Below, in pieces: positions 3,994-33,900 of a stretch of DNA of 37,011 nt. The notes under the pieces are model-generated. The model searched no databases, was not told where the DNA came from, and saw only the letters and a list, made by a program, of their open reading frames with translations. This DNA comes from Saprospiraceae bacterium. Its GTDB lineage: Bacteria; Bacteroidota; Bacteroidia; Chitinophagales; Saprospiraceae. A program made the translations under genes and the position numbers. Each line of letters begins with the position of its first letter. Position 1 is the first letter of the stretch. Location: contig JAHDEO010000005.1 in assembly GCA_020628725.1 (NCBI GenBank), positions 11,174 through 48,184 on the forward strand, given 5' to 3'.

Positions 3994-4054
3994 CGTAACA
4001 CAGACATTCCTGTCTGTGCGGTAGCGTAACACAGACAGGAATGTCTGTGTTACG
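3994..4054. repeat. Inverted repeat, word C copy 1 (25-bp perfect arms, 11-nt loop)
   Basis: cgtaacacagacattcctgtctgtg ... cacagacaggaatgtctgtgttacg. Confidence 0.95.
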
Positions 4055-5354: not shown

Positions 5355-5456
5355 TGTTTCATGGTTATATTGTTACATTGTTTTATTGCTGTATAATATC
5401 GGTTTTTGCATAGCAAAAACAATAATAACAATGAAGCAATATAACCATGAAACAAT
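5353..5456. repeat. Inverted repeat (word E, 20-bp perfect outer arms) with nested gtttttgc-ata-gcaaaaac hairpin
   Basis: attgtttcatggttatattg (5353-5372) versus caatataaccatgaaacaat (5437-5456). Confidence 0.95.
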
Positions 5457-5469
5457 TGAGCAATGTAAT

Positions 5470-6519: not shown

Positions 6520-6551
6520 TATTTTGATTATTTATAAACACGATAACCGTT

Positions 6552-6579
6552 GTAGAGACGCGATTAATCGCGTCTCTAC
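6552..6579. repeat. Perfect 28-bp palindrome (word D)
   Basis: gtagagacgcgattaatcgcgtctctac is its own reverse complement. Confidence 0.97.
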
Positions 6580-6581
6580 CG

Positions 6582-7460
6582 CTATTTCAGTATCATTCCT
6601 ATTTTCATTGTTGAACGGTCTAAACCGTTTGTTTCCAGATTTTCGAGGGTCAATGCGCCATTAGGTGTTTTTACGGTAATTGAATTGTCACTTAGTTGGA
6701 GTATTTCGCCGTTTTTTTGTTCGTAATTAAAACCTGTATCGGAAAAAACGGCTTTGTGTGCGATGATTTTGTGTTCATCAAAAAACGTAAATGCGCCGGG
6801 ATAAGGTTTGGCTTGTGCGCGTACCCAATTGCGAATACGTTCCTTGCTCCAATCCCAAATTATTTGTCCGTCTGCGGGTGTTCTTTTGCCAAAATAAATG
6901 GCATTTTCTTTCTTTTGTGGAGTAAATTTTATCGTATTATTTTGAACGGAATTCAGGACGGATTCGGCGAGTCCGGGATAGAGAGCTTCGTATTTCTTGA
7001 GGATGTTTGCGCCAGTGTCTATTGGTGTTATGGGTACTTTTATTTGTTCGACTATATCACCGTTATCTACTTCTTTATCAATAAGATGTGCGGTAATTCC
7101 AGCTTCAGTTTCGCCGTTTATGATTGCCCATACGTGCGGGGTGCGCCCACGATATTTAGGTAATAGCGAACCGTGAATATTAATAGCATATTGACGGGGT
7201 AAATCAATTAAATCTTGTTCAATGATGAATAAATAATTTACGGATAATAACACATCACATTCAATGTTCTGTATGAATTCCGTAGCGCGTCCTTTACGCG
7301 GATTGCCAACGAAAAGCGGCAGCGATTTTTCACGCGCCAAATCAATAATTGCATCCGAACCTTTATTCGTAAAGACCGCCTGAATATCAAATCCACGTTC
7401 CAAAAGATGTTTGAAAATAACGTGTCCGAGATGCCCGCTGACCATTAAGGATGTCGTCAT
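6582..7460 (-). CDS. Formyl-THF-dependent formyltransferase-like protein (Fmt/ArnA-N-like), probable sugar N-formyltransferase
   Basis: INIHGSLLPKYRGRTPHVWAIINGETEAGITAHLIDKEVDNGDIV is the formyltransferase signature; flanked by pse genes. Start MTTSLMVSGHLGH at 7460; the ORF extension to 7553 enters a repeat. Confidence 0.85.
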   Translation of the reverse strand: MTTSLMVSGHLGHVIFKHLLERGFDIQAVFTNKGSDAIIDLAREKSLPLFVGNPRKGRATEFIQNIECDVLLSVNYLFIIEQDLIDLPRQYAINIHGSLLPKYRGRTPHVWAIINGETEAGITAHLIDKEVDNGDIVEQIKVPITPIDTGANILKKYEALYPGLAESVLNSVQNNTIKFTPQKKENAIYFGKRTPADGQIIWDWSKERIRNWVRAQAKPYPGAFTFFDEHKIIAHKAVFSDTGFNYEQKNGEILQLSDNSITVKTPNGALTLENLETNGLDRSTMKIGMILK

Positions 7461-7492
7461 GATATTTTTGTTTTTGAAATGAAAATTGTTTG

Positions 7493-7625
7493 AACTACGA
7501 AGCACACAAAGGACACTAAACCTAATTAACGCAAAAGAAAACGAAGGTTTCAAAGAAATTTCTTATTAATCCTTGTGTTCTTCTACGTCTGTTTTGTTTT
7601 CGTGTCCTTCGTGAACTTAGTGGTG
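7493..7625. repeat. Long imperfect inverted repeat (word I)
   Basis: aactacgaagcacacaaaggacac ... gtgtccttcgtgaacttagtgg, imperfect pairing through most of the spacer. Confidence 0.75.
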
Positions 7626-7640
7626 TATAATTGTCGGATT

Positions 7641-8642
7641 TTATGTTGTAATTTCTTCAGGAATCAACAACGATTTAATCTGATGAATGATGCGTTCTCC
7701 GCTTTTTCCGTCAAATATTTTTCGTTGATTGTATGCGGCTATTTGTATGTCATTTTCCGTAAGATTTTCCAGTTTATCTAATTCAAACGCTAATTTATTT
7801 TTCAATAAAAACTGCTGAATATACTTTTGATTATCAGCTATTTGATGCAAAAAAAGCGTTCCGCCAACATGCAAATATTCGTATGCAATCGTACTTGGTG
7901 GAAGAATGGCAACCGGACACTCGCGCATCACGGCTGCCATTTTCTTCGGAGGGATATTGCTAAACAGTTCCACATTTGGAAGATGTAAGGAAGTGTATTT
8001 TTCAAGTTCATCACGATGCAAATATGCTGCACCGATAATGACCTTTATTTTATCCTGAATGTTTAATGATTTAAGTTTTTTTAGAATATGTAAGGTGTCA
8101 TTTTTAGGGTCTGCTCCGCCGAGGCAGAGTAAAATATTTTGATTTTGGGGAATTGGAGAATCACGCTTTTTAGCTGCTTCTAAAAACGGTTGTTTGAGTA
8201 CGGCGTATTTTGGTCCCAAGCAAAATTCGGTATGCGATTCTGCCGAAAAATCCTTTACACTCCAACCGCCTGAATGATTAATCACTACATCCGCGACATA
8301 GTGTTTATCCGCTAAGTCATCAATGCAAATCAATCGGTATCCTTGCGCCCGAACCGCCCGTTGGTAATCCGTGCCAAAATGATACCCGTCCAAGATAAAC
8401 ACATCCCTTTTTTCCGATAAATGCTTGCCAATCCACTTGACTTCATCAGCATTTGTATTTATATGGACGGGTATTTCGTAGAGATTTTTACAAACTTTAT
8501 TTATTTGATTTTTAAGGCTTTCCGGGATGTTTCTCGTTACAAAAACACATTCAAACTCTCCCGACAACATCTCCGCCAAAGCCAGACATCGTGAGATATG
8601 ACCAAGCCCAATTTTCGAGTTCCCATCTGCACGAAGAATCAC
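7641..8642 (-). CDS. pseG: UDP-2,4-diacetamido-2,4,6-trideoxy-beta-L-altropyranose hydrolase
   Basis: ILRADGNSKIGLGHISRCLALAEML start, then FILDGYHFGTDYQRAV and LCLGGADPKNDTLHILKKL. No nearby ATG; GTG at 8642 gives VILRADG. The ORF extension to 8708 translates a repeat. Confidence 0.86.
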   Translation of the reverse strand: MILRADGNSKIGLGHISRCLALAEMLSGEFECVFVTRNIPESLKNQINKVCKNLYEIPVHINTNADEVKWIGKHLSEKRDVFILDGYHFGTDYQRAVRAQGYRLICIDDLADKHYVADVVINHSGGWSVKDFSAESHTEFCLGPKYAVLKQPFLEAAKKRDSPIPQNQNILLCLGGADPKNDTLHILKKLKSLNIQDKIKVIIGAAYLHRDELEKYTSLHLPNVELFSNIPPKKMAAVMRECPVAILPPSTIAYEYLHVGGTLFLHQIADNQKYIQQFLLKNKLAFELDKLENLTENDIQIAAYNQRKIFDGKSGERIIHQIKSLLIPEEITT

Positions 8643-8770
8643 GGTAAACGGTAAACGGCGAACGGTAAACGGTGGCGTGTTGTACGTAGATTCAGTTTTG
8701 CATTGCATGATATTTTTCGGATAAATAAAAGAAAATCGTTAGCCGTTGGTCGTCCGTCGTTTACCGTCCT
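8640..8770. repeat. Repetitive imperfect inverted repeat (word F)
   Basis: cggtaaacggtaaacggcgaacggtaaacggt ... cgttagccgttggtcgtccgtcgtttaccgt. Confidence 0.8.
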
Positions 8771-9962
8771 ACGCTCGCATAAGTTGCGGTACTTGCGTTG
8801 GTTTTGAAATTTCGTTGACAAATTCGAGTATGTGATTGATGACTCGGTCTTGTTCCTCATCGGTCAAAGTTGGGAACATTGGTAGGCTGAGACATTGCTC
8901 ATAATATTGCTCTGCATTAGGATACATACCTTCTCTGAAACCCAGCTTTTTATAATACGGCATTGTGTGTACAGGGATGTAATGCACCTGTGCATAAATA
9001 CCTTGTGACCTGAGATAGTCGTATAATTCCTTGCGATTTTCGACTTGAATTACATATAAATGGTAGGCATGTCCCACGCCTTCTTCGAGCGCGAGTGTGC
9101 GTACCTGACCGTAAAATGCCTCGTCATATTTCACCGCAATTTCCCGTCTGCGTTCTACGCCTTCATGGGCACGTTTGAGTTGTGAAAGTCCCAACGCACA
9201 TTGCATATCTGTGATGCGATAGTTGTAACCCAACTCCTGCATTTCGTAATACCATTTGCCCGGTGTTTGGGTTAATTGTTCGGCATTTTTCGTAATTCCG
9301 TGTGTACGAAGGAGGCGTAATTTTTCGTATAAGTGCGGGTTATTTGTCGTAATCATTCCGCCTTCGCCACATGCGATATGTTTAACCGGATGAAATGAAA
9401 ATATGCTCAAATCAGCGTATTGACCATTACCACAACGCACTTCATCTCCTTGACTATCAACGAAATATCCTCCCGGCGAATGACATGCATCTTCAATCAT
9501 CCAAAGTCCATATTCATTTGCCAATTCATGCAATTTTTCCAAATTCACCGGATAACCTGCAAAATTTACAGGAATGATACCGCTATATGTTCCCATTGGC
9601 GCAGCCTCCAACATCTGGCGGACATAATCAATGTCAATCAGCGCGGTTTCAGGGTCAATATCTGCAAAGTCAATATCGCCGCCGGAGTACAAAACACAGT
9701 TTGCAGAAGCTGCAAACGTGATAGGCGTAGTGATAACTTTTGTGCCTTCCTGCACCCAAAGTACCTCTGTGCAAAGGTGTAATGCAGTCGTCCCATTCGA
9801 AACGGCAACCGCATATTTTGCCCCTACATAATCTGCAAATGCTTGCTCAAATTCCTCGACAACGGGACCTTGTGTGAGCCAATCCGAACGCAGTGTATCC
9901 GTTACCGCTTGTATATCTTCGTCGGTAATCCACTGTCTGCCGTATGGTATTATTTTTCTCAT
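8769..9962 (-). CDS. pseC: UDP-4-amino-4,6-dideoxy-N-acetyl-beta-L-altrosamine transaminase
   Basis: DegT/DnrJ/EryC1 aminotransferase: MRKIIPYGRQWITDEDIQAVTDTLRSDWLTQGPVVEEFE, SNGTTALHL, FSFHPVKHIACGEGGM (PLP lysine). Confidence 0.92.
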   Translation of the reverse strand: MRKIIPYGRQWITDEDIQAVTDTLRSDWLTQGPVVEEFEQAFADYVGAKYAVAVSNGTTALHLCTEVLWVQEGTKVITTPITFAASANCVLYSGGDIDFADIDPETALIDIDYVRQMLEAAPMGTYSGIIPVNFAGYPVNLEKLHELANEYGLWMIEDACHSPGGYFVDSQGDEVRCGNGQYADLSIFSFHPVKHIACGEGGMITTNNPHLYEKLRLLRTHGITKNAEQLTQTPGKWYYEMQELGYNYRITDMQCALGLSQLKRAHEGVERRREIAVKYDEAFYGQVRTLALEEGVGHAYHLYVIQVENRKELYDYLRSQGIYAQVHYIPVHTMPYYKKLGFREGMYPNAEQYYEQCLSLPMFPTLTDEEQDRVINHILEFVNEISKPTQVPQLMRA

Positions 9963-9992
9963 TTGTTTTCCTTTTATTGTATGATGATGCTT

Positions 9993-10047
9993 CGTAACAC
10001 AGACATTCCTGTTTGTGCCGCGTACAGACAGGAATGTCTGTGTTACG
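9993..10047. repeat. Inverted repeat, word C copy 2
   Basis: cgtaacacagacattcctgtttgtg ... acagacaggaatgtctgtgttacg, one mismatch. Confidence 0.93.
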
Positions 10048-10071
10048 TTTTTTTTAATGTATAATTTCGCT

Positions 10072-11112
10072 TTAAGCTGCTTTTTTCAAGATGACAAATG
10101 AGGTATCAACATGGTCATGAATCAGCCCCCTCAATTTCTCTACTGTCAACCATTCTGTGTTCGTTCCAGAGTCATAACTGAAGCCTTCGGGTACAGGTTT
10201 TGCATCATAATGGAGTAGATAATCCTCTTTAGTTTTATCTAAATATGTGAGGTTGGTCGGGCAGATAACAAAGTGCTTTTTCAACTCAATGGTGTTATAA
10301 GAATCTGCCGGAGTAATCATTTCTTCGTGGAGTTTTTCGCCCGGTCTGATTCCGATAATTGGGTGTTCACAATCCGGTCCGATTGCTTGAGCTATATCCG
10401 TGATTTTGTAGGATGAAATTTTGGGAATAAATATCTCTCCGCCAAGTGCATTTTCAAGTGCAAAAAGTACCAAATCAACCGCACCTTTTAGGGTGATATT
10501 GAAGCGGGTCATACCTTCATGTGTAATCGGAAGTGTGCCTTCCGCGCGTTTTTTAAGGAAAAATGGAATAACAGAACCACGCGAACCCATCACATTACCA
10601 TAACGCACAACAGACAGCTTCAAATCACGCGAACCTTTCATATTATTTGCCGCTACAAAGAGCTTATCGGAGCATAATTTTGTTGCGCCGTAGAGGTTAA
10701 TTGGAGCAGCTGCTTTATCAGTAGAAAGTGCGACGACAGATTCAATTTTATTGTTCAATGCAGCCTCAATAATGTTTTGTGCGCCGAGTATATTTGTCTT
10801 GATACATTCCATTGGATTGTACTCGGCGGCAGGTACTTGTTTGAGTGCTGCAGCGTGTATGATGATGTCCACATTTTCGCAAGCACGAGAGAGGCGAGCA
10901 GCGTCTCTGATGTCACCAATAAAATAGCGGACTGATTTGTGCTTTATCGGAGAAAATTGCTGCGCCATTTCGTACTGCTTCAACTCATCACGCGAGTAAA
11001 TAACAAGGCGTTTTACTTTTGGATATTTCTGTAAAATAGTCTCCACAAATTTCTTCCCGAATGAGCCGGTGCCGCCTGTAATGAGTATAGATTTTCCGTT
11101 TAGATTAAGCAT
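10072..11112 (-). CDS. pseB: UDP-N-acetylglucosamine 4,6-dehydratase (inverting)
   Basis: SDR/FlaA1-type: MLNLNGKSILITGGTGSFGKKFVETIL, STDKAAAPINLYGATKLCSDK, RYGNVMGSRGSVIPFF. Confidence 0.93.
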   Translation of the reverse strand: MLNLNGKSILITGGTGSFGKKFVETILQKYPKVKRLVIYSRDELKQYEMAQQFSPIKHKSVRYFIGDIRDAARLSRACENVDIIIHAAALKQVPAAEYNPMECIKTNILGAQNIIEAALNNKIESVVALSTDKAAAPINLYGATKLCSDKLFVAANNMKGSRDLKLSVVRYGNVMGSRGSVIPFFLKKRAEGTLPITHEGMTRFNITLKGAVDLVLFALENALGGEIFIPKISSYKITDIAQAIGPDCEHPIIGIRPGEKLHEEMITPADSYNTIELKKHFVICPTNLTYLDKTKEDYLLHYDAKPVPEGFSYDSGTNTEWLTVEKLRGLIHDHVDTSFVILKKAA

Positions 11113-11385
11113 GATATTTCCTTTTTTCGATTGTTGATAATGAGCAAAAAATGTTATTTGAGGTGAGGTAAAAACTACGTTTTTCTTTTAATTCAAATGT
11201 AATTTAAATTTAATTTGATTAGCGAATTAAAAAATCATTTTTGTGACGTGGTTTATTTAGATGATTGAAAATAAAAATCTGTTTATCAATTATTTATTAT
11301 CAAAATAAAAAAATAATTTAATCGCAAAAAAAATGATGTTTTTTATGCGAAAGGAGGAAATAAATAATGGAAATTGTTGAAAAAC

Positions 11386-12423
11386 CTACTCTTTCAAAGT
11401 GTCTGAAATTATTTTAAATATGAGCATAAAAAACATAGCTGCGATGATACCAATTACTAAGCCCTTTACGACAAACCAAGTTCGTGACGGTGAGTATGCT
11501 TCAAGGGGTAAAACGGGACGTTCGGTGACAATTATCGCGGGTGTTTCTTGCCCTAATTCCCTACTGGCATGAGCATATTGTTGTTGCAAATTATCAAGCT
11601 GTCTTTTGCCCATTTCTATGTCAAATTCGAGGGTTTTTATTTCTGTATTTAAAAAGCTTTTTGATGAGTTTGCAGTACCTTGTTTTTTTGCGTTTTTATA
11701 ATTGACCAAATGAGCATAATTTGTTTTGATTTCAGTACGTAATGAATCAATTTGTCCGCTTAAAATATCAAAACCTTCCTGCTTCGGATATAGCACAGCT
11801 TCTTCGTAAACCTTCTTCAAATTCTGCGCTAAATACTCTACAAAAAAAGCAGATAATTCTTCCGAAGGAGAAGAAAAATTGACGGTAAGTAAGCCAACCT
11901 TCTCTTCCATTGAAGCATGAATAAATCCGTCAGAAAAATCAGTCTCATGAGTCGTGATTTTTTTGATAATTCGATTCAACACCTTGCGATGAAGTTCATC
12001 AAATTCTAATATATTTTTATTCGTAAAAGAAAAATCAGGTGGAAGTTGGAAGGGAATAAAATTAGGGTAGGTTGCTTGATAAATTTTGAGATAATGATTG
12101 ATGAAATAATCTTCTTTTCCTCCGATATTTACCTTATCAAAAAGTGTATTTTCAACCACCAATCTGGAGTTGGCAACTTTTGAGAAAACTTGTACAATCG
12201 CAGCATTATTTTTAGCAGAAGCATCCATTCGGAAAAGTGCGGACACCTTTGCATTATAGGTAGGTTTTACATCCTTTTTTGGATAATAAGAAAAGGCTGC
12301 AAACAACAAACCTCCAATCACCGATAAATACCAATAGCGCAAAAAATACCGCAGGTATTCCTGCGATTGCAACAGCAATTGCCGTAAAGTAATCTCGTCC
12401 GATGTCCTTGGATGATTTGCCAT
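11386..12423 (-). CDS. Wzz-like chain length determinant / polysaccharide co-polymerase
   Basis: TM near N-terminus (YLSVIGGLLFAAFSYY), coiled-coil middle, C-terminal proline-containing TM (ERPVLPLEAYSPSRTWFVVKGLVIGIIAAMFFMLIF). Confidence 0.78.
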   Translation of the reverse strand: MANHPRTSDEITLRQLLLQSQEYLRYFLRYWYLSVIGGLLFAAFSYYPKKDVKPTYNAKVSALFRMDASAKNNAAIVQVFSKVANSRLVVENTLFDKVNIGGKEDYFINHYLKIYQATYPNFIPFQLPPDFSFTNKNILEFDELHRKVLNRIIKKITTHETDFSDGFIHASMEEKVGLLTVNFSSPSEELSAFFVEYLAQNLKKVYEEAVLYPKQEGFDILSGQIDSLRTEIKTNYAHLVNYKNAKKQGTANSSKSFLNTEIKTLEFDIEMGKRQLDNLQQQYAHASRELGQETPAIIVTERPVLPLEAYSPSRTWFVVKGLVIGIIAAMFFMLIFKIISDTLKE

Positions 12424-12494
12424 ATTTTTTTCATTTAAAAACAGGGAGAGAAGGCAGCTCTTCCCGTTAATACTAAAACTCTAATACATATTTT

Positions 12495-14012
12495 TTATTT
12501 TACAATTACAACAGTCCCACTTTTTAAGAGATTTTGCGTCTTATCCAATATGAGGCGATAAAAATACGCGCCGGCAGGTAGTGATTCATCGGATTGCATG
12601 AAGGTTCCTCGCCAATTATTTTGGTAAGGCGCAGCCTGATAAACCAATTGACCGCTACCATTGAAAATCTCTAATTGGGAATCGTCAAGATTCACTTGTC
12701 CCCTTGTCGAATTGACTGTGAATAAGTCATTTTTACCGTCTCCATTTGGAGTGATTTTTCCGGTGACAACCAATTCCATATCGGATAATACAGGAGTATT
12801 TTTCGGTGTCAAGCCTTCTTCAACATGGAGGGAGATAAGCCCCGATGTAATGGTCAAACCGGGTAATTCAGGATTGGTAATTTTGGCGTAATAGATGCCT
12901 GCGTCCTGCTCTGAAAGTGCATTAAATGTTAGGTGTTTTTCGGAAGTATTTGTTTTGTATTGTTCATCGTCTTTATACCAATTATATTCATTGCGGTTGG
13001 TGTATTCAAGGGGTAAATCCATACGGTAATTTTCTTGCAAAGCCTTGAAAGCCAATGCGTCATCGTATTCAGGATGTTGTTCTTTATAATCTTCGGGTTT
13101 GGTAAAAAATTTAGTACTAGGGACAAGTTGAGCGAAGTCAAACTGATTGCGAGCGACAATGAGTCGTTTAAAATTATTGAGCTGTCGGAAATCCCAAAGT
13201 TCCGATAATTCATTGCCAGACACATCCATGTGTTCCAGTTTTTTGAGTTGACAAAAATCGGGAACTGCACCCTCTAAATCGTTATTTTGCAATAATAAAA
13301 CACGCAATTTGGATAGGTTAAATTTTGGGATGTTGCTATGTAAGTTATTATGCGGTAAATACAAAAAGCGTAGCTTAGGGCAAGCCGCGAAAGTTGGAAT
13401 TGTTCCCTCCACCTCATTATAATCCAATTCAAAACGCTCCAAACTTTTAAGGTGTGTAAATTCGGGAATTTGCCCTGAAATATTATTGCTTGACAAGCTA
13501 ATCACCGTTGCTTTTTGTAAGCCTGTGAAATCAGGGAGCGTTCCGGTCAGTTTGTTACTGCCAAGATATAATCGGATTAAATTGGGGAGTTGAAGGTCGG
13601 GCAATTCGCCTTGAAGGTTGTTGCCGCCTTTACTTTTTGCAGTATTGTCGGGTACGCCATCGAGGTCGATTGAATTGACACTACGCCCTAATTTACAGAG
13701 GGTTACGCCATACCATTTTTCCAGTGGTTCGTCTAAATTCCATTTAATTTTCCAATTTTCACCGCCTGTTGCATGGTATAATTCGACGAGTGCCAATGAA
13801 TCCGCCTGACGTGCTGCGTAAGCTCCTTTTGACACACTTTTACTCGTATTTGTATGAGAAAAAATCAAGCAAACACACATCAACACCATAGACAAACGCA
13901 CCAATCGACACATGGAAATACCAATGGAGTTTTCCATTGATTCACAGTCAATTATCTTTGAATTGTCTAATGAACACAATCTTTTTTCGTTATTATTTTG
14001 TGAATATTTCAT
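12495..14012 (-). CDS. Secreted leucine-rich-repeat protein with gliding-motility/T9SS-type C-terminal domain
   Basis: Hydrophobic N-terminal segment, LRRs (LPNLIRLYLGSNKLTGTLPDFTGLQKATVISLSSNNISGQIPEF), C-terminal TPNGDGKNDLFTV...AGAYFYRLILD CHU_C-like domain. Start could be internal at 13937. Confidence 0.85.
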   Translation of the reverse strand: MKYSQNNNEKRLCSLDNSKIIDCESMENSIGISMCRLVRLSMVLMCVCLIFSHTNTSKSVSKGAYAARQADSLALVELYHATGGENWKIKWNLDEPLEKWYGVTLCKLGRSVNSIDLDGVPDNTAKSKGGNNLQGELPDLQLPNLIRLYLGSNKLTGTLPDFTGLQKATVISLSSNNISGQIPEFTHLKSLERFELDYNEVEGTIPTFAACPKLRFLYLPHNNLHSNIPKFNLSKLRVLLLQNNDLEGAVPDFCQLKKLEHMDVSGNELSELWDFRQLNNFKRLIVARNQFDFAQLVPSTKFFTKPEDYKEQHPEYDDALAFKALQENYRMDLPLEYTNRNEYNWYKDDEQYKTNTSEKHLTFNALSEQDAGIYYAKITNPELPGLTITSGLISLHVEEGLTPKNTPVLSDMELVVTGKITPNGDGKNDLFTVNSTRGQVNLDDSQLEIFNGSGQLVYQAAPYQNNWRGTFMQSDESLPAGAYFYRLILDKTQNLLKSGTVVIVK

Positions 14013-14050
14013 TAATAGTTTTGAATTAAAATAGTGCGTTGTGGTGTTGT

Positions 14051-14146
14051 GTAATGACTGCTTTAGCTGTCAAGTGCGTTTAATACACCAAAGCAATTAT
14101 TTATAAATATTTTCCATGACTACTTGACAGCTAAAGCAGTCATTAC
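14051..14146. repeat. Inverted repeat, word B copy 2 (25-bp arms)
   Basis: gtaatgactgctttagctgtcaagt (14051-14075) versus acttgacagctaaagcagtcattac (14122-14146), perfect. Confidence 0.95.
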
Positions 14147-14153
14147 GGGGCTT

Positions 14154-15329
14154 TTACCCAGATTGTGAGTATCTCTGTAAGGTGCGGATAGAAAGTGCAG
14201 GCTGCTTGCGCTTGGGTACGATAGTCGGTTGTGGATTTTCAACTACATCACCGTAAAGCATTGCCATTTTTTTCCAAGTATATTTTCGTTCTGCGATAAG
14301 TCTAAGATTTTCAGCAACTTGTGCCAAAGGCTGGAAGTCTATATTGCCAACTATTTGATATAAATCAATACCATTTTCAAAGAAAATTGCTTGATTATTC
14401 GTCGTTACGCGATTGTAAATGACATCGTAAGAGACAATTGGTAAACCCAAAAACATCGCCTCTACCAATGACGGATTCGTACCACCCGCGCTATGTCCAT
14501 GAACATAAAAATGGGCGTTGGAACGCAGCAAATTCAATTCCTCTGATTGGTAAATCGGGTCGAGTAAATAAATGTGTTTGAACTTGTCGAATCTTGCTTT
14601 CAAGTCTTTTCCATATTGGCTATTATTCCAATTACCCACTATTACAAATGGCTGATAAGGCAATTTAGAAAAAGCCTCAAGAATGATATGGATATTATTT
14701 TCCGGCTCAATTCGAGCGACTTTGAAGGCGTATTTTTTATTCAAAAACGGGTAACGAATCGCATCTTTTGGTCTCTTTTGAACTTGTGCAACATGGTCTG
14801 CGCCGTATTCGATGAGACGACTGTCGCGACTGTATCGTATTTTTACATACTCTTTCAAAATGCGGTTGTCAGTAATGATTTCGTCCGCATATTTACAAGC
14901 CATTTTTTCACTAAACAATAAAAAACGCTTTGCAAAACGCCCCCATTTAGGTCTGCGCCACTCCAATCCATCAATATTTACCATGATTTTTTTACGGGTA
15001 AATAATTTGATAATCGGCAAAAAAATACAACCCGAAACACCCAAAACCAATGCCGCATCACAAGTACGAAGCGCGAGAATGAGCGACCACAAATCGTAAA
15101 AAATACTCTGTGCGCCATTCGCATTGAGGGGAATGTATTCGAGCTTTGCGCCGTTGAATTCATCCATTCGTTCCTCTTCATCATAGGCTTTTTTGCTGCA
15201 ATACACCGTCATGTCAAAGCGGTCATGTAAATGTATAACCAAGTGATGCACAAGGGTTTCAAAGCCCCCATACTTTGCAGGTACGCCTACCGTACCGACT
15301 ATGCCGAGTGTCATTTTTTCCTTTTTCAT
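14154..15329 (-). CDS. Glycosyltransferase with DUF1972-type N-terminus (rhamnosyltransferase-like)
   Basis: MTLGIVGTVGVPAKYGGFETLVHHLV, VNIDGLEWRRPKWGRFAKRFL, HGHSAGGTNPSLVEAMFLGLPI. Start at 15329 (MKKEKM) or 15314. Confidence 0.86.
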   Translation of the reverse strand: MKKEKMTLGIVGTVGVPAKYGGFETLVHHLVIHLHDRFDMTVYCSKKAYDEEERMDEFNGAKLEYIPLNANGAQSIFYDLWSLILALRTCDAALVLGVSGCIFLPIIKLFTRKKIMVNIDGLEWRRPKWGRFAKRFLLFSEKMACKYADEIITDNRILKEYVKIRYSRDSRLIEYGADHVAQVQKRPKDAIRYPFLNKKYAFKVARIEPENNIHIILEAFSKLPYQPFVIVGNWNNSQYGKDLKARFDKFKHIYLLDPIYQSEELNLLRSNAHFYVHGHSAGGTNPSLVEAMFLGLPIVSYDVIYNRVTTNNQAIFFENGIDLYQIVGNIDFQPLAQVAENLRLIAERKYTWKKMAMLYGDVVENPQPTIVPKRKQPALSIRTLQRYSQSG

Positions 15330-15408
15330 TGTAGTGCATTTGTGGCTGCCTCTCATGTACCAACAGGCACACGAGGGCAAGCCCATTTAGAGGAATGGGA
15401 GAACGAAA

Positions 15409-15637
15409 GTTCAAGTTCAAGCGTCAAATTCAAGCTCAAATTCATTTTGAATTTGACTCATTCGCTTGCTTGATTATCCATTAAAAAATAATCCAACAAA
15501 AGGGTCTGATAACCTGTGGTTGTGGTGTTCCGAGTAAGTATTTTGAACAAGCTTATCGCGTAGTTCTTTTGTTAATAATTCGCTGAAAGCGAATCAAATT
15601 TGAACTTGCTCTTGATGCTTGAACTTGCTCTTACTCA
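15409..15637. repeat. Low-complexity inverted repeats (word G: ttcaagttcaagcg / cgcttgaac, plus hairpins)
   Basis: caaattca-ttt-tgaatttg (15437-15455), attcgct-gaa-agcgaat (15578-15594), tttgaacttgctcttgatgcttgaacttgctc on the far side. Confidence 0.7.
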
Positions 15638-16726
15638 AGCAGATGTCTTCCTATGTGGTGGCATCTGAATAAGTGTGTGGTGAGTGGTGTGTTTGCGTTT
15701 TTCAGCTTCCTTTTTTCCAATATTTTTTACCAACAAAATGAAAATCATCATTGTGCAAGTAAAAACGAGAAGCCCCATGAGTAGAGATATGCTTGTATAA
15801 TTAGCGGCGAATAAAATCAAACAAATATTGAATGTGATGAGTGTTACACAAATTAGCGGTGTACTCATTTTTGCAGTATCCAACATGATATGATGGATGT
15901 GTTTTCTATCCGGTTGAAAGGGAGAGTTGCCCTTCGACATGCGCGTAATGAATACACGGACTAAGTCGATGACCGGAATGAAAATAATCGCGGCGATGAT
16001 AAGCGGTGCTTGTGTCGCACCTGCGCCGTAATATGACATGTTCAAAAATTGAATGCACAATACACCGATAATCAACCCAATAAGCGTGGAGCCTGTGTCG
16101 CCCATGAAAATTTTGGCTTTGTAAAAATTAAATTTCAAAAAGCCAATAATTGCTCCGGCAAGTGCAAAAGACAGTATGCTCCAAGCCGATTCGCCCATGA
16201 TGGCAAAGAGGATTCCGAAAGCTAATGCGCCGAGTGTGCCGAAACTTCCCGCGAGTCCGTCTATTCCGTCAATCAGGTTGTATGCATTGGTGAGTGCTGC
16301 CAAAAACAACAGCGTCATTCCAAAACTCAAGACCGGATGTATATGCTCTAAACCCATAAAACCATAAAAGCCCTCAATGCTGAATCCCGCATAAAACAGG
16401 ATTCCGGCAGCAGTTAGTTGAATGAGTAGTTTACGCGAGGCGCGAATTGGTAGAATGTCATCGACAATACCAATCATTGCTATCAACAGTGTTGCAGCTA
16501 TGAGATAATTAATAGCACCAAGACCGGAAAATAACGAAGCAGCTATCCAAAATCCGGCGAATATGGCGATACCGCCGAGCGAAGGTGTTGGGTGAGTGTG
16601 TAGTTTTCGAATATCGGGTTGGTCATAGACTTGCCGATGGTGGGCAATTTTGATAATCGCAGACGTACCTACGTACGCCACCGCGAGTGCCGTCGCAAAG
16701 GACAGCAAGGTGTAAAGTAGAACCAT
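15635..16726 (-). CDS. Undecaprenyl-phosphate sugar-1-phosphate transferase (WecA/MraY family)
   Basis: Multi-TM; RKLHTHPTPSLGGIAIFAGFW, NLIDGIDGLAGSFG, FMGDTGSTLIGLIIG, DRKHIHHIML signatures. Confidence 0.92.
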   Translation of the reverse strand: MVLLYTLLSFATALAVAYVGTSAIIKIAHHRQVYDQPDIRKLHTHPTPSLGGIAIFAGFWIAASLFSGLGAINYLIAATLLIAMIGIVDDILPIRASRKLLIQLTAAGILFYAGFSIEGFYGFMGLEHIHPVLSFGMTLLFLAALTNAYNLIDGIDGLAGSFGTLGALAFGILFAIMGESAWSILSFALAGAIIGFLKFNFYKAKIFMGDTGSTLIGLIIGVLCIQFLNMSYYGAGATQAPLIIAAIIFIPVIDLVRVFITRMSKGNSPFQPDRKHIHHIMLDTAKMSTPLICVTLITFNICLILFAANYTSISLLMGLLVFTCTMMIFILLVKNIGKKEAEKRKHTTHHTLIQMPPHRKTSA

Positions 16727-16760
16727 ATTGTAGAGCCTCTTGTGATGAAAGATGATGTTT

Positions 16761-16824
16761 TTGCATGTACTGTGTTTCCCAAGACAGGAGAAGTAGTTTC
16801 CAAGTACTTCTCTAAAACATGCAA
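16761..16824 (-). promoter_or_regulatory. Structured leader candidate: three-way junction upstream of WecA-like gene
   Basis: P1 ttgcatgt/acatgcaa (8 bp), P2 gagaagta/tacttctc (8 bp), P3 ctgt/acag (4 bp), nested without overlap; loops gtttccaag and gtttcccaag. Confidence 0.6.
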
Positions 16825-17154
16825 TACAAATTTAATGTGTATAGTGGTGTGTTTGCTTTACAGGAAAATGCAACTTCGTGACATGGTAGTGTTGAAAGTC
16901 AATGTTAAAAAACACCTGCTGGTTGTATTTTTTATAAGTATAGCTTATTTATAAATGACTTATTTTATGGTGAAAAAAATAGGAAAAAGGTAGGTTTTAG
17001 GCAAAATAGTGAAAAAAACGACGTGTTTTTTAGCGTCACAAATTTTCATAATCAAATTCTATATAAGAAGTTGCCTTTGAAAAAATGAAGTGACTAAAAT
17101 AGGAGAGAAATTGATGTGATAATTCCTTCTGAATGTTCTAAAACATGGTGATAC

Positions 17155-17187
17155 AAAAAAAGCCATCTCACAATGAGACGGCTTTCT
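17155..17187 (-). terminator. Rho-independent-like terminator after small lipoprotein gene
   Basis: Minus-strand AAAGCCGTCTCATTGTGAGATGGCTTTTTTT: 12-bp stem with one wobble, then T-run. Confidence 0.8.
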
Positions 17188-17672: not shown

Positions 17673-20600
17673 TCAATACTTCACAAATTCAATCGTCTCA
17701 CGATGTATTCCATTTCTCAAATGAATAAAATATACTCCATCACTAAGCTGCGACACAGGAATCATAATCTGGTTATTCGTTGGAATCGTCCAAGACGTTT
17801 TATAGATTTCCTGACCGAGTGTATTGTAGATTTGACATTGCAAATCGCCCAATAAGCCATCTTTATAATCAATGAAAATCTCATCCTTCGCAGGATTCGG
17901 ATAGACATTGAAATCAACGCCCAATGGCTTGCGATAAATCGCCACCGTACGGCTGTAGGTACTGCTGCCATCCGTGTCAAATTGTTCTAATCGGTAATAC
18001 GAATTTCCGCTAAAAGGCTGCTCGTCTATATGTTCGTAATTTTGAATCGTACTGCTCGTTCCGGCAGCTTGTACTTTTGTAATTGACTCAAAATCAACGC
18101 CATTGCGACTGCGTTGTACTTCGAAGTAATCGCTGTTTTGCTCGGTGGCTGTCTGCCAAAGCAATTGCACATCGCGTTCACGATTAATCGCATTAAATGA
18201 CACCAACTCAACAGGTATCAAAATCGCGGTATCTCGTATCCAAAATTCCGAGAAATCATCTACTTGAAATTCCACATAATTCACACCGAAATCCGTACCC
18301 AAAGTCGTTGTGATAAAGGTCAAATCTCCACCTTCCGTCGGGTCATACACATCATCTTCGCCTGTACCTGAATAGCGGACTACGCTGAGTTCATTCTCCA
18401 TCGGTGAATTATTTCCGGTTAGATTTTGATATTCTCCATCCGTAAAATACAAGCGTACGCTCACCATCGACTGCGGTGCAATTTCCGGAGAAATACGATA
18501 ATGACGTTCCATTAAAGTGTATTCGCCATTATAGTCGATAGGCATATCATTGACGTATAAATTCGCACTGACATTACCCAAATCACTACCCGATGTATTG
18601 AGAGAAAATAAAATGCGTCCCATGTTATCGGTGAAATGTTGCCAGCCTTGCAAGTCCGTGACACACACGCCCGCGCTGACCGCATCCGCCATTGGAAGAC
18701 CGGCTCCCATCGCACAAGTCGGAATACTTGACAAATCGACTTCCACCGTCACGATGTCTGTACTAAATGCCACACCATCACTCACCGAGACCAAGAAATC
18801 TAATTCCTGCCCCTGATTCGCTGCCGTGATTGAGAAAGAAGGTGTCGCAATCGTCTCATCATTCAGCGTGATGCCATCCGGAGGATACCATTGGAAGGTC
18901 AAATCATCGCCATCCGGGTCGAATGAATTTGTCGCGTCCAACATATAAGTCGTTTCCATAGTCACGAGGCTGTCCAAGCCTGCATCCGCGACAGGAAGGG
19001 CATTGCTGCCGACCTCGATTTCCCAAGTCGCATAGCTGATGTCGTTCCCCGAAACACCACTTGTGTATTTATTGAGTAATGTCAAATCAACGCCTATGGA
19101 ATAAGTACCCGGCGTATCATCTATCGTCGATAATCCGGTTAATTCAAACTCTGTCAATGATATCGCTTCAATAGATAAATCACTCGCATCCAGCACATTA
19201 TTATCATACAATAAAACTAAAGCATTTTGTACTTCTGAAAAATCCAATAATTGCGCGGAGAAAGTCAGGACCAGCGTATCAGGATGCTCAGTCAGCACTT
19301 GATTAGGTGCTAAATCCCAGTCTGCCGTCAATGCGGATTCATCAATGTAAATGTCGAAATTCGCTTCAACCGTGTTGCCATCTTCATCGGTAGCTTCCAC
19401 CAAAATCGCCGTATTACCGCCCGTATCGAATAGCAAAGGCACTGTGACCGCACCCGCGGGAACGGCATTGAGTGTCGTCAGCAAGGTCAATGAACCATTA
19501 TCATCTTGATAAATCCGAATCACATCCGCCGCTTGATTGATGCCAAATGATAAATCCAACACATTCGTAGCCGTCACACCATCCACTAGCGAGTAACCCA
19601 TATCCGGCGAGATGCCCAAGCCCGAAATCGCAATTTCGGGTGTTCTGTCCACCGTCCAAGTGGTCGTTTCTGTGCCTGTTCCGAAATTACCTGCTAAATC
19701 ACTAATTTGGCTCACGTCAACATTCAACACATAATCGCCTTCGGGATAGGTTGTTTGGTCAAATGATTCTACTTTGAAAGAAGTTGGATTTACGATGCTG
19801 ATTTCGGCAGGGTCGAGGTATTGCGCCGCACCGTCTTTCAATAAGCTAATCGCCATCGTATCAAACTCCATTATCGCCTCATCAAAATTCATATTTGCAC
19901 CTGTATAATGTTGTGCATCCAAACCACCGCCGATGAAGCGGAGTAGGTTGGTCAATTGTGGTGCTTGTGTATCCATCGTGAAGGTTTCGGATTGCATCGC
20001 CAAGCCCGGTGTACCGCCGTCCGATTCGATACCTGTCATGTCAATTATCAATTCATATTCACCATCATTACTGATAAATGAATTGATATTCGTCACTTCA
20101 AATAAAGTATTTTCCGCATTCAATGGGCTAATCGTAAACGTACCCGCCTGTATGCCGCCACCAAACATCACCTCCAAATCATCCGCCGTGAAGGTCGCGG
20201 GATTGATAGGCATATTGAATAAAATTTGTATCGTATTCAATTGATTGGTAAAGCCGTTTTCAGGAAAACCTGTAAACTCCAATACAGACGGAACGGATAA
20301 AAATTGTGTCCACGAAACTTGCTCGCCGACTTCGCCGCTCGTACCCGTAAGGTCTTCTACACCAGCCGCTTGTGCGGTGAATACATAGAAACCATCATTC
20401 ACCGTGAGAGCCGAAATATCTACTTCAAATGTCACCGAATCAATCTCTGTGATAATGACTGAATTATCAATCAAATTACTGCCGCCTTGCAATCTCAACA
20501 TCAAGTCTTCCGTACCAAATGTACCGTCAATAATTTCCTCGCTGAATGTGACTGTCAGCGTTTCAACTTGCATCGCAGTCAATTGGTTGGGATGTCCTTC

Positions 20601-23600
20601 AATACTGACGACGAAGGGCGGATTCGGGTCTTTCGGACTCCAAACGACCGTGTATGTGACTTCATCAAAGGTGTCAAAATCATCTACAAAATGGAATTTA
20701 TCTTCGTAAACAGGCTCTTTGCTATCGGGCAGTGTAACGTGCGTCAACCAAGCATTTTTCAACGGAATTTCCTGTCCGTCGCTATCGCGTGTGACGCTGA
20801 CGATTTCAAAGTTACCATTACCGGGGTCGTCTATTTTAATGTAATTCCAACCTTGTGCGGACGGGTCAATGTGGAAGGTATTCGTATTGCCTGCGGCAAG
20901 AATATTTCCTGTAAAATACGCGTCTTGTGCTTCAAAAACATCGTAAATCAAATTCCCTTGTGAAAGGTAAATCGCGTCCGGTGTTTCGTTGGCATCTTGT
21001 ATTTCATTCACCAAGAAATCATCCACACCGTCATCCTGTGTATATACCTCAATCGTGTGAATCGACTCATGCAATTCCACCCCGCTAATCAGACTCAAAT
21101 CAGGATTTCCAAAACTACTCAAATGGACAAGATTTGTTTCATAACTAATAAAATGTCCCAATAAAGTACTCGTGAAATACCATTGCCCGACCTTCGTGGA
21201 AAGCGGGGCGATGTCGCCGAATTGAATATTGGTTAATCCCATATTCGCGGGTTCGCCTTGTAGATTTGAACCAATCAAGCTGAATTCAATCGCCAAACCG
21301 TCTTCATTTTTAACGATTTCGGGTTGGGCAGATTCGATGAGAACGCCCATCGCCACGCCGTAACCATTATTTTCTACCATCACTGCTAATTCAGCAGGAA
21401 TAATCGGTTCGATAGCTTCGGTCAATGGGTCATCGCCGTAAATATCGCGCTGCATGAAATAGTGCAAATACAAATCAGGACTCGGATTCACCTGCAATGT
21501 AACCGGAATCAAAGGCACTGTCACCTCCAAACCGCTAAATGGGTCAAGGTAGCTGACCGAACCGCCAAAGGAATAATTCACCGGAACGGTAGGTGCAGCA
21601 CCGGGTTCGGGGATGAAAAGAATCGTTGCCGAGCCATCTTGTTGGGCGGCAAGCGAGCCTGTACCATCTACTCCCGTAAGGTTATTCAATCCTGTGACTT
21701 CGATTTGGAATAAATCATTACTCAATACGCCGTCGGGATTGAGAATTTCCAAATTCAATTGTAAATCTTGCAAGGCATCTGTCGGATGACCGTTGAATAC
21801 GCCGAGTGTACCTTCAAAGGCTTCGCGGGTCATGGTGAGTTGTTGGCTGATTTGAATGGTGACAGAAGAACATACGCCACTATTTGATTCGCCCTGATCT
21901 ACGATAATGTCAATAGATTCGTACAACATTTCATCAATACTCGCATAACCTCTATTAAATGCGTAGTCTTGAACTGACTGAATTTCAGCAATATACGCTT
22001 CGATGGAATCACGATTGACGATATTGGGATAAGTCGCATTGGGTGCATAAATACCATTGCTCCATGCCATTTGCGTCTCATTCCAACGACTGATAAATGC
22101 GTCAATTTCACTTTCTGAAATATCAAAATCCGCTAATTGTGCTTTAATATCATTAGCATCGCTTGGACTCACAGGCAGTTCATTGTCAACAAAGGGGCTG
22201 AGTGCCACCGCAAATTCGCTGACATTATCATTATCGGCTAATGGACCGAAATATTCGTCCATCCATGCATTATGCGCCTCGTATGCCATTTGAACTTGCA
22301 CTAAATCATCTCCTGCCTGTTGGATGATAGGCGGTACATCACCGGAGCTTTTATAAAGAAAATCCTCTAATTGTAAATTGCCATCACCGTCGCTACACAA
22401 GTCACCTCCGGCACAGGAATTAATGGTACAGATGATACTGATAATACAACCAATTCCCTTCTTAGGAATACACCCCAAAAGCCCGAAAAATGCGCCCGTA
22501 TTTGAGCCGCTTGTCAATACACCACCGATGCAGCCAATGGCACCCGTAGGCGGATAACAACCCAGTGCCGTAAAAACAACACTATTCACGCAGGCATTAC
22601 ATCCGATTTCCGTAACGGTACTCGGTGTATTATTATTAGGATTGCTCGGACCTGTGCCCGGACAGCCCGGACAGCCATTTGGTGAGCCACCGCCCGGACC
22701 AAAACCACCACCGGGAAGCCCCGAACCATTGCCCGGACATACCCTTCCGGAGTAGGTAAACATCTCTCCGCCTTGTTGCCACAAACCATTATCTCCGCAT
22801 TCGTACCAATACGCCGTAAAGGTGAAATCTTGACAATTTCCACTAAGACTCTGCGATTGGAAACTCTCGAAACCATCCTTTTCAATACCGAGAAAATCGG
22901 ATACATCTCCGTAGGTATTATAACCGTCATCATTGACGAATTCCTCGTTTTGTCCGCCGTTTCTGCGTCGCATCACGACAGGAACTTGGATGGCTTGTTG
23001 TGCCAATAAATCAGTTGGGGTGTAATTGGTAATAAACTCATATTCAGGGTCATCTGTCGGGAAATTCAATTCCACATCCCGCGCTGTGATTAAGCCGAAA
23101 TTGGTCATCGTCGCATAAAAGTTATATTCTTCGCTACCAAATAATTGCGGCATGGAATCCGGCATTTCGAGCAAGACTACGGGAGCAGGAACGTTGGTTT
23201 CAAACTCCATTATGAGGTCGATTTCATACACATCTTCCACCGTTGTCGGCACTACATCCCAAGTGAATGAAATCGCCTGATAAGGTAAAAATACCGTCTC
23301 GGTGACGTCTGTTCCGGGTAAAATTTCGACGGTGTTGTTGTAGCCTTCATGTTGCTCAGCTTGTACGGTCAGGCGCAGCGTACCTTCAGGCAGGCTATCC
23401 GCCATGAACAGCCCGTCTTCGTCGGTGACACCTTCGGCAAAAACTTCGCCTGTGAAGTAGTGGCTGATTTTCACTTGTGCGCCGGCTACGTGTGGAGCTT
23501 CTTCAGTAAAATAAGTGTATTGATCCACCACATCTACGATGATACCACCCGTTTCTTCGGATACTTTTTCGACGGTATATGGGATATTGAGGAAATTGCC

Positions 23601-26600
23601 ATTGGCGGCATTAATCACGATATTACCATTAGCAGGAGTATTTAATGGTAGTGACGCACCCGGCTTGAACTCAATGATTACCAGCGAAGTATCACCCGAT
23701 TCAAGTGAAGGCATCGTCGGTAATGTAATCAATGACATAAAATCTACCGGAGGTAGGCTTACGGTAATTTCACCCGTTTCTCCTTCACCATTATTATAAA
23801 TTTGAAATTCTAAATAATTGGATTGTGTTTGTGAAATGGTGCGGTTGATACTCGAAATTTCCGCGCTGATATAGCCTTGTTGTGCTTGACAGAAATAGAA
23901 CGCCGTTTGTTCGTACGACAAGTTTTCGTCGGAAGTAATTCGCAGTGGAATTTCCTGATAAAAACCAATCGGCGATACTTCCGTTCCGTTTACGGTGTAA
24001 TTAAATTCCTCTGTCGCACCACCCGCAATCGCAGGAATCGTATCAAATGTAACCGATGCGCCCGCCGGAAGCGACAAAGTTTCTGCCATAACATTATTCA
24101 AGGTAACGTCGCTTCTATTTCTCACGGAAATAGTGCCTGTTATCGGTTCGTTGAGCAATACTTCCCATAAAATAAATTGATTCGCATTGAGTTCTATTCC
24201 GAGAATATCAAATTCGTCTTGTGCTGTATTCGCGCCCATATCCGGGAAGGATGCTCCTACTTCGTAATGTCCCGCTTCGTTCGGAAGTGGTTCAAAAACA
24301 GTGGAATACGCGCCGCTGCCATCCGTTGTTACAGAAAATTCACGACGAATATTATCGCCTGTAATCACGTATAATTCTAACTCAACATTAGGCACAGGCG
24401 TATCAAATTCATCCACCGATTCACCATAAATCACAATATCATCACCTTGCAAAAAGACCGCCTCATCTACGATAGCCGTACCGAAATAATCCGGCTCTAA
24501 AGTGACCGTAAGCGGTTCGGAAGTGTTGTTTTGATATTGAATTTCGGTAATCGTACTTTCCGGATTGACCTCAAAAATCAGATAGTACGCTCCAGCCTCG
24601 TAAGGCGTGATGCCGACATCCCAAATTTCCAACGTATCACCAATCGCAATCGACGTATTGGTGGTGTATTGACCAATTTGAAAATCACTATTATTCAAAA
24701 TAGGGTCGTCCGAAATATAGCCACGTATCACCGCGCCACTCGGCGCAGATGCCAAGCCACTATTCGTTAAAAATACACGGAAATTAAAAGGTTCTTGTGC
24801 CGCCAAATTGGTGTCATCCAATGTAACATTTACTATCTCAAAATCGGGTTTATTATTGTCCGTGACAATCACAAACACAATACCCGGTGAGAAGTCCGTA
24901 GCCTCGGCTTGAATCGTAACTTGCTGATTACCATCGACTATACCATCTGCAACTGTTTCAATATCGACATTTACGGAAGATGCGCCTATAGGAATTATGA
25001 CCGTAGCAGGTAGCACCAATTCCGTCTCATCTGATGAAGTGAGATTGACGGTTAGCGGAACGTCAGTCGGGGTATTTCTTTCGATGCGAAGTGTACCTGC
25101 ATTCGTCGAACCTTCTGCCAAAGACAGCGGATTGACGAAAGCGGTGAGCGTAGGACCGTCGTTGTCCAGTACCGTAAGCGTATCCGAAAATACACCTGCA
25201 CTCGTACTTGACGCCGTACAATTACAAGACGCAATCAGGACAGATGCCGTGATTTCTATCTCTCTAATACCTTCATTTTGAAGATTATCAAAGACGCCGA
25301 TAAAGAAGCGTTTTTCCATCTCACCCGGACCAAGCGGCACGGTGGAAGGCAAGTACAAAGCTCCCGGACTATCCGTTGCAATATCGACTTGCAAGACACT
25401 ACTCGCATTGCCCAAGCGGGTAATTACGCCTTCGGTAGCATAAAAACCCGATGATTCGGAAATGGTATCGTTTGTAATCGCAAAAGTAATCGCGGGAATG
25501 TCCTCGTCATTGGTGAGGGTAAATGAGGCGTTGGCTGCCACAAGCCCTGCCGAACCTGCTGTGATAGTGATAATTTCGTCCTCTTCGGCAATGTCGTCGT
25601 CGGGTAGCGTGACTTGTACATTTGCGGTGGTCATCCCCGGTGGAATGACAACGGGCGTAGGCAAAGGCACTTCATCCGGCGAGTCAGAAATGATGTTGAT
25701 AAATAAGGTGTCGGGCGAAGAAAAATCAGTCACTATATCAAAATCCAAGACTTCGCCTTCGGCAATCATCGCAGGTAAATTATTGATGGATAAAGTCGGA
25801 ATTTCATCATCAATTAATAAAAACTGCTCTGTATCAGGCGTGTAGCCCGTCGCGCTTGCCGTCATTTCGATTTCTATATCTCCTTCTAAATCAGAATTTT
25901 GAATGGAATAAATGTAAAATGCTCTACCCGCTTGCCCCGCGCTGATAGTCACGGTGGCAGAGGCATTGAAACGTGCGGGTTCGTTCAAAGTGATATTGAC
26001 CGTTTGACTTTGTACGGTTGAGCCACTGCGTGTGACGGTGCAGTAGAGACTGTTGCCCTCGTTAATTTGGTCATTTGCCAATGTCAAGAAAAGGATACTC
26101 TCAATCGTCCATGCTTGATTTTCAAAGGCAATATTATTCGCCGTAGAAAGCGGAATTTCAAGAATATTCGGGATAATTTCTACTACAAAAATCCCTTGAT
26201 TGCCGATGTTGAGGTCGTTCGGCAAGTTGAGGTTATAACTGCGATTGAAGAAGGCTCCGGCTTGAAGTGAGTCCGTTCCATCGTAGTCAAATTGTCCGAC
26301 CAAAGTACGATTTTGACCGCCGGGAGCTTCGATATAGACCTTCTCTGTCCAATCCGTGACTGCTGCGCCATCGCCGATATTTCCAATCGTCCATGTGACG
26401 GTGGCAGGGTCGCCGGGTTGTGCAGTCGTTAAATCTGACACCACATTAATCACTTGTAAATCAGGTAATTCAGGAAGTGGATTTACGGTGATTGTGACGG
26501 TGGCGGTAGCTTCGCAGCCGTTGTCGTCTGTCGCGACGACTTGGTACATTTGCGTCTCGAAAGGTGCAACTTGGAGGGTCGGGCTAAATGGATTTTCGCC

Positions 26601-29600
26601 TTCGAGTTCGCCACTCCATTCGTAGTTGGTTGCGCCGCTTGCGGTCAAGGTCAGCGTATCGCCATAGTCAATTGTCGCATCAGGTGTCACCACCAAATTG
26701 ACTGCCGGATAAGAAATGACCTCAATCGAAGTGGTGTCGTTGAAGGTCAATTCATCCGTACCCAAAAGCGTATATGCCGCGAGCGTGTAGGTGCTGTCTG
26801 CGATGAGTGTGACGGGCGTTGCAAAGGTATGTTCGAGTGTAAATCCGGGGTCAATTGACTGATTTACAGTTTCTACGATGGGAGTGTCATCGCCCAATTG
26901 ATAGGCTACATCAAAATTAGATTGAGTGAGGCTGCCCGGATTTTTGATGACGATGGTTACGTCGCTATTCGGTGGAATGTCGCAGCCTGTGGTCGGGCTT
27001 AGAATGTCGATGACGCCTAAATTATTTTCCAAACTCGTAAACTCATCTGCACCAATATCGGGCGCAAGCGGATTACGAAAATCACCGTCAATATCTTCAG
27101 GCAAACCATCAACGGGTGTACCTTGTTCGCTTAATAATTGTTGGGCGATGTGGAGATCGTCATTCGCAATAAATTCGGGGTCAAGATTGAAGGAATTGGC
27201 ATCGTGTCCACTGCCCGATTGCCAACTTCCAAGGCTGGTACGATTGCCCATGAGATAGCCAACCTTTCCACCGGGAGCGTAAAAATCGTTGTAATCTGAC
27301 TCGGTGATGTCGTTGGAATTTTCCGCATAAATAGCGTATCCTGTGCCGATATTTGCGAATATATTATTTTTGAGATTCGCAAAATTACCATTCAAATAAA
27401 TGGCGCGTCCTGCGGTCGCTTCGTTGGCTGTAACGAGGATATTATTGTGGAAAATGTCAATGTAATTCCCACTAAGTCGCATTCCGTAAGTCGTACTTGC
27501 GCCGTCAATCGTTACAAAATTATTTCCGATAAGTCCATGTACTTCTGTGCTTGCAGTGCCTGCGCTTACATCAATTCCATAAGTTGCATCATTGAGAATC
27601 AATGTGTTACCAATCACTTCAAAAGCATCACGAGGGCTTAACATATAAATGCCTCGACTCATGCTTCCTGTATTGATAATATCATTCGACCGGATAACCG
27701 GAGCAATGTGATAGCGTATGGTAATGGCATCGCTTGATTGCCCTGTAAACAGATTATCCTCGACTAATAAATTGGTCGAATTATTATAACTATTATCATA
27801 AAAACCATAAGTACCACCGCTAAATTGATTTTCTGTTATTTGTAAATTATCTACAAAATTATCCACGCGAATACCCATATACGAGGTCGAAAATCGACAA
27901 TTATTGATATTTACATTTTCATTTGTACCGGATAAAATCATGCAGTACGCGCTATTCGCATCTTGCTCAAAAGTCAAGTGGCGGAACTCGATGTGATCGG
28001 TGCTATCTAATTGAATGACGATATTACCATAATCGCTCACGCCATTCATTATCGTGACACTCGTACTGTCCTGACTTTCGGATTGAAAGAGGATTTGGTC
28101 ATTGACGGATGCGCCGAGGATTTGATTGATTTCGACATTTTCAGCGTATGTACCGTCTTGAATATTGAAGGTGACATCGCCGACTACGCCGCCACGTTCG
28201 AGGGCTTCGGCGGCTTGTGTAATGGTTTGAAAATCAGCATTATTTGTGCCTATTGTGTATGTGCCTATGAGGGCGGCATACATGTCATCAACTTCGAGGG
28301 TATCGTTGTCAGCGTAGCTGTCAGCTTGCCCGTTGGGGTCGGCTACCCAGACTTTCAAATCATAGGGTTGCGCCACGTCAAATTGGAAGGTACCAATCGA
28401 CACATCATCGGATGTACCGGAGGGGATATTGCCCGTCCAGTTCACCTCGCGGATAGTATCGTTGTTCATTGACCAGCTAATCGTAGCGGAAGTCAAGGGC
28501 GTAGTGAAATTATTGACAACGTTGATAATCAGTTCATTAGTGCCTTGTGGGAAGGGTGGTGTAGGCGAGATTAAATTTACGATTCCAATGTCATCAAAAG
28601 CAGTCGGTGACTCGTCCGCACCGATATAGGGCGAAAGCGGATTCCGTTCATCGCCCTCAATATCTTCCGTGACACCTGCAATCGGAATACCCACTGCGAG
28701 GAGAATATTATTGGTATGTAAATCATCTGCCGACTGGAATAGCGGGTCGAGCGAGATGGAATTACCGTCTTGCTGCGTGGCAAATTCCCAAGCGGTCAAA
28801 TCGGCGGCGTCTGCACCGTCCCAATTACCAAGCGTCGCGCCTGTGGTGTGGTAATCGTTATAATCTTGCACCAAGCCCGTCGTCGTGTAACCTTGCATTG
28901 CCCAACCGCCGCCTTGATGTGAGAAGATGTTGTTGCGAATATCCGCGTTATCACTATATCGTTGGTAAAATGCTTCGTAACTCGCTGCACCTGTTGTCAG
29001 GACGCTATTGAAATATACATTGGTGTTGTCTGCATTATATAAATAAAAGCCATCGCCTTGCGACGAAACCATATTATTGATAATGCGAGAGCTTTGTGCC
29101 GCAACGCTCAGGTCGCGTACATATAAGCCTGTGTTGGTGCTGTTGTTGTAAATTTGATTGTTTTCAATTTGAGTGTATTGGCTGTTACGAGCGTCGATAC
29201 CTGTGTTTCTTATGTCAACTGTATTGCCCATAATTTCAAGGGTATTGGCAACATAACGGACGTAAATGCCCGAACTGCCGTTGGGATTATTTATTTCATT
29301 ATTATGAATAATAACGCTATCGCCATCGTAATTGTAAATTTCGTAATTGCTACTTGTATGAACGCTGTTAATTTGATTATCTGTGATAATGACGCCGTTC
29401 AAAGTATTACTTGACAAAGAAATCGCTTCGCGACAATTATTAAATTCATTCCCCGAAAAACGAAAATCAGCGCAGCTTCCGCTATACGAATTATAGATTG
29501 CGTGGGTATTATTTCCATTAAAAATGCAATTGGAAATATCGAGGTTATTTATGCTGCCATTCAATCTGAAAATGAGGTTATAAGAACCAAAAGGTCGGAA

Positions 29601-33896: not shown

Positions 33897-33900
33897 ATAT

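Follow-up and report, generated by a model that had tools for sequence, protein, structure and literature searches.

The window, by which we mean the whole 37,011-nt stretch of Saprospiraceae DNA that was analyzed, carries a minus-strand operon (4050-16726) that is headed by a wecA-like gene together with a gene for a DUF1972 glycosyltransferase. The downstream genes include PseB, PseC and PseI, and because each of these scored above its NCBIfam cut-off, we assigned the cluster as an operon for pseudaminic acid, a surface sugar. A leucine-rich-repeat protein with a type IX secretion signal (12495-14012) lies within the operon, and one open reading frame that extends over 5188 codons (17673-33239, minus strand) is located a short way upstream of it. 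A hairpin that follows an upstream small ORF is likely to separate that ORF from the pseudaminic-acid operon. The leader of the operon was compared between the source genome (G000), a sister species (G199) and two congeners (G003 and G191). The features of the leader and its surroundings are as follows:

15635-16726, minus strand: gene that opens the operon, for a wecA-like glycosyl-phosphate transferase (PF00953, 5e-39)
16727-16762, minus strand: A-rich spacer ahead of the start codon, mostly unstructured, identical in the sister species G199
16763-16768, minus strand: 3' arm of helix P1, ACATGC (+55 to +60), from complementarity and predicted pairing
16770-16787, minus strand: P3 hairpin, CTGT-CTTGGGAAAC-ACAG, from folding; only in G000 and G199
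16788-16812, minus strand: P2 hairpin, GAGAAGTA-CTTGGAAAC-TACTTCTC, from folding; only in G000 and G199
16817-16822, minus strand: 5' arm of helix P1, GCATGT (+1 to +6), paired in the MFE structure (P 0.85-1.0), with paired counterparts in G199, G003 and G191
16822, minus strand: predicted transcription start (+1), the fifth base past the -7 box by the published Flavobacterium spacing
16827-16834, minus strand: -7 promoter box TAAATTTG, a perfect match to the consensus TAnnTTTG, read directly; same place in all four orthologs
17157-17184, minus strand: likely terminator, a GC-rich hairpin and T-run after the upstream small ORF, read directly

An earlier note on this DNA had described three helices (P1, P2 and P3) and two matched loops that form a three-way junction in the 5' leader of the operon. 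All of these parts are present at 16761-16824, the junction was reproduced by folding of both strands, and reading of the minus strand confirmed that the loops are nearly identical (CTTGGAAAC in P2 and CTTGGGAAAC in P3). The place and strand given to the element were correct, the sense strand being the minus strand. The significance of the fold on this transcribed strand is modest: its energy of -17.4 kcal/mol corresponds to z = -2.15, five of 200 shuffles were equally good, and 2.2% of the GC-matched 64-nt windows in the region matched its stability. The plus strand, which is not the sense strand of the operon, gave -21.6 kcal/mol and z = -4.25. The suggestion that P1, P2 and the loops together exceed chance did not hold for P1 and P2 alone, because the 37-kb window contains perfect 8-bp hairpins at about 17 distinct sites and, when gaps of 3-60 are allowed, 8-bp inverted repeats at 173 positions. 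It was the comparison of orthologs that lifted the element above chance, given the high identity of the leader relative to the sequence preceding it and the pairing of the same hexamer in all four orthologs.

In mapped Flavobacterium promoters, the corresponding box lies at -12 to -5 (PMC9723704). Applied to the -7 box, this spacing predicts +1 at 16822, where the P1 core begins exactly 4 nt past the box, and gives a predicted 5' UTR of 96 nt. The mRNA would therefore begin base-paired. The two outermost U-A pairs of the helix (16761-16762/16823-16824) fall at -2 and -1, outside the predicted RNA; the sister species lacks one of these pairs, with the six inner pairs of P1 intact. Judging from the sequence, the mRNA of the pseudaminic-acid operon probably starts inside a hairpin that conceals its first bases.

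Orthologs were sought in 398 sampled genomes of the family and six genomes of the genus, with a wecA cut-off of E 1e-75. Orthologous wecA was recovered only from G000, G199 (92% amino acid identity), G003 (62%) and G191 (59%), all of one genus, and gene order supports the orthology fully for G199 and G003 and in part for G191. The leaders of G000 and G199 share 97% identity, compared to 79% for the preceding intergenic region and 88% for wecA. Common to all four orthologs are the TAnnTTTG box, a 4-nt interval, a hexamer NNATGT and its perfect complement ACATNN located 20-50 nt downstream; the pairs are GCATGT/ACATGC in G000 and G199, GAATGT/ACATTC in G003 and AGATGT/ACATCT in G191. Positions +1 and +2 read GC, GA or AG across the three lineages, each with a matching change in the partner, and offset 0 was the sole offset with pairing in all four orthologs. 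The predicted pairing probability of +1 to +6 was 0.85-1.0 in G000, 0.83-0.99 in G199, 0.74-1.0 in G003 and, more weakly, 0.55-0.92 in G191. Two genomes have the 3' arm of P1 at +55 and the other two have it at +27 or +28, and we therefore describe the pattern as maintained pairing rather than strict column-by-column covariation, with compensating changes that come from three independent lineages only.

The frequency of such pairing was estimated in several ways. A paired hexamer was found after 8 of the 453 distinct TAnnTTTG sites in the DNA examined, four of the eight being these leaders, and the background rate after a -7 box is about 1-2%. Dinucleotide shuffles of the downstream sequence gave a chance of 0.9% for G003 and 4% for G191; with any position taken as the reference, a 6-bp complement was present at 2.4% of positions overall and at 6.7% in this AT-rich intergenic region. 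The combined chance for two independent lineages is ~4e-4 to 4e-3, a product computed for a test that was chosen after the pairing had been seen. In distant wecA homologs (~40% identity), the -7-like boxes are not followed by a +1 hexamer that pairs. The combination of a -7 box with NNATGT...ACAT was not enriched over a reversed control within the genus, indicating that the element is not a regulon-wide leader.

A comparison of ortholog leaders, a kind of check that the earlier note had proposed, bore out the pairing of the P1 core, with compensating changes, but not P2, P3 and the paired loops, which are common to G000 and G199 only. In the leader of G003, a simple P1 closes a 21-nt loop and a separate hairpin comes after it; in that of G191, P1 closes a 20-nt loop. 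Each of the twin loops carries one change in G199, with the cores GG(G)AAAC retained, and AAAAACATCAT of the A-rich spacer is also retained in G003. A DNA search of 199 family genomes with the element yielded nothing but itself above noise, and a search with the loop-pair pattern yielded itself and a single unrelated match, in which only 6 nt separate the two loop words. The covariance model (R2), run on the 199 family genomes and selected loci, recovered only G000 and G199 and missed the leaders of G003 and G191; its seven further matches (E 0.05-0.6) were at noise level. The genome contains no second copy of the twin structure. Since P2, P3 and the loops are common to the sister species alone, they do not constitute a conserved ligand- or protein-binding core, and the view of the twin-loop junction as a functional unit is unsupported beyond these two species. 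By these sequence comparisons, the junction elaborates the 5' stem locally and is no conserved receptor. We also considered whether the twin loops arose by an internal duplication of 22 nt; this was dropped, as removal of the duplication barely improved the alignment with G003 and G191, and G003 has weak counterparts of both loops.

We propose, with about even confidence, that the element is a 5'-terminal stem-loop of the operon mRNA that would shield it against 5'-end-dependent decay, by analogy with ompA and papA of E. coli. What the orthologous leaders share is a paired 5' end and, after it, an A-rich stretch that stays mostly open up to the start codon. In E. coli, 5'-terminal pairing blocks RppH and RNase E, and 5' structures stabilize mRNA because both enzymes require a single-stranded 5' end (PMC3997798). 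Transcription of the pseudaminic-acid operon would begin at 16822 and nucleotides +1 to +6 would be sequestered in P1, with P2 and P3 as lineage-specific hairpins within it. If the RNA folds in vivo as predicted, there would be no free 5' end, pyrophosphohydrolase and 5'-sensing RNase E/G would act poorly, and the long polycistronic message could survive longer as attack on its 5' end is hindered. RNase E/G is encoded in the genome (E 1.8e-95). Bacteroidota are a group of organisms without Shine-Dalgarno sites, and the unstructured A-rich stretch after P1 would remain open to ribosomes. The unpaired probability in G000 is 0.86-0.89 for the 20 nt after P1 and 0.5-0.7 near the start codon, a region that is mostly open and not occluded.

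The ompA and papA stems likewise start at or near +1 and are followed by a single-stranded ribosome-binding stretch (PMC3997798). Pairing rather than sequence matters in these stems, and RNase E/G is present, as it is here. Unlike those simple stems, the structure in G000 and G199 is a three-way junction, in another phylum that lacks Shine-Dalgarno sites, and stabilization would be expected by analogy. Support for the suggested cis-acting leader RNA comes from the spacing of the -7 box, the conserved leader and the recurrent 5' hairpin with compensating changes. The anatomy of the element is well supported, and we infer its function. For the wider claim of a new class of regulatory RNA the evidence is negative, and the element is best read as an ordinary message-protecting device rather than a new kind of switch. 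The protective reading, if right, would provide comparative evidence in Bacteroidota for selection that maintains pairing at the +1 of an mRNA, extending to this phylum a mechanism whose known cases are mainly from E. coli. It would also offer a small concrete target for studies of 5'-end-dependent decay in a phylum whose mRNA decay is little studied.

The twin loops raise the question of whether an RNA-binding protein or an sRNA acts in trans by reading GGAAAC, to control how the operon is translated or how stable its message is; we regard this as rather doubtful. Two near-identical loops with GGA/GGGA do occur in a single leader, and their cores are retained in the sister species with a weak counterpart in G003, but each loop was altered once in G199, the similarity of the loops is at p = 0.09 in G003 and absent in G191, and the twin structure is single in the genome. 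CsrA-type leaders carry twin GGA hairpins, and the leader described here similarly has two GGA-containing hairpin loops; unlike in CsrA-type leaders, these loops do not overlap the ribosome site, and CsrA had no match over the cut-off in the genome (95% complete). It is quite unlikely that selection for hiding the first six nucleotides is combined with an unknown RNA-binding protein that reads the GGAAAC loops, resulting in regulated access to the 5' end. A chance fold of a conserved, otherwise unremarkable leader is unlikely: the modest z-score, the share of matched windows with equal stability and the frequency of 6-bp complements in this intergenic region are all consistent with it, but the same register is paired in all four orthologs despite changed bases. 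The dyad protein-binding site that had been suggested, a double-stranded DNA operator at the promoter with the P1 arms as half-sites, could account for the ATGT found 6 nt past the -7 box in all four promoters. Such an operator is very unlikely because the distance between the arms is 48, 21 or 20 nt depending on the species and their flanking bases change together.

Bacteroides upxY usually heads its own operon and prevents termination within the untranslated leader. The pseudaminic-acid operon is also a polysaccharide operon of Bacteroidota, the usual target of UpxY (PMC12118408), and the source genome encodes one UpxY-family protein, at 127 bits (cut-off 100). Unlike in the Bacteroides systems of capsule antitermination, this single paralog is encoded in a separate locus, on contig C642, and the first gene of the operon is wecA-like. 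The covariance model detected no copy of the element in the ~3-kb loci around upxY, and none was detected near the upxY homologs of three congeners. LoaP recognizes a hairpin of the UNCG type that precedes a NusA-dependent terminator (PMC12691694), and the LoaP/dfn leader resembles the present one in placing a hairpin before a long biosynthetic operon. In contrast to that leader, neither loop here is of the UNCG type (CTTGGAAAC and CTTGGGAAAC), and no terminator-like site was found on the minus strand between 16822 and 16726. The processive antitermination raised in the earlier note is thus unsupported, and recruitment in trans of the UpxY/NusG-type antiterminator of this genome is highly improbable. 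A riboswitch or attenuator that senses a sugar nucleotide would fit a three-way junction heading the leader of a biosynthetic operon but is extremely improbable: the leader had no Rfam match even at E up to 5, with only tRNAs above the gathering threshold in the window, no core is conserved among the orthologs, and there is neither a competing terminator nor an occluded start codon.

A few further observations were made. The neighbor of the UpxY-family gene is, as we take it from reading the sequence, a UDP-GlcNAc 2-epimerase-like ORF. An inverted repeat, AATGGATAACGAATAATGGATAATGTACAA.../...TTGTACACTATCCATTATCCATT, takes up the gap before the UpxY-family gene (L067 1831-1926) and resembles a small mobile repeat element. 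The window also contains three tRNA genes (33657-34432, minus strand), the last with a weak score of 37 bits. On the plus strand, 35027-35860 and 36128-36976 encode two neighboring redoxin-like proteins, each with a type IX secretion signal at its C terminus, and the two genes are probably a tandem duplication.
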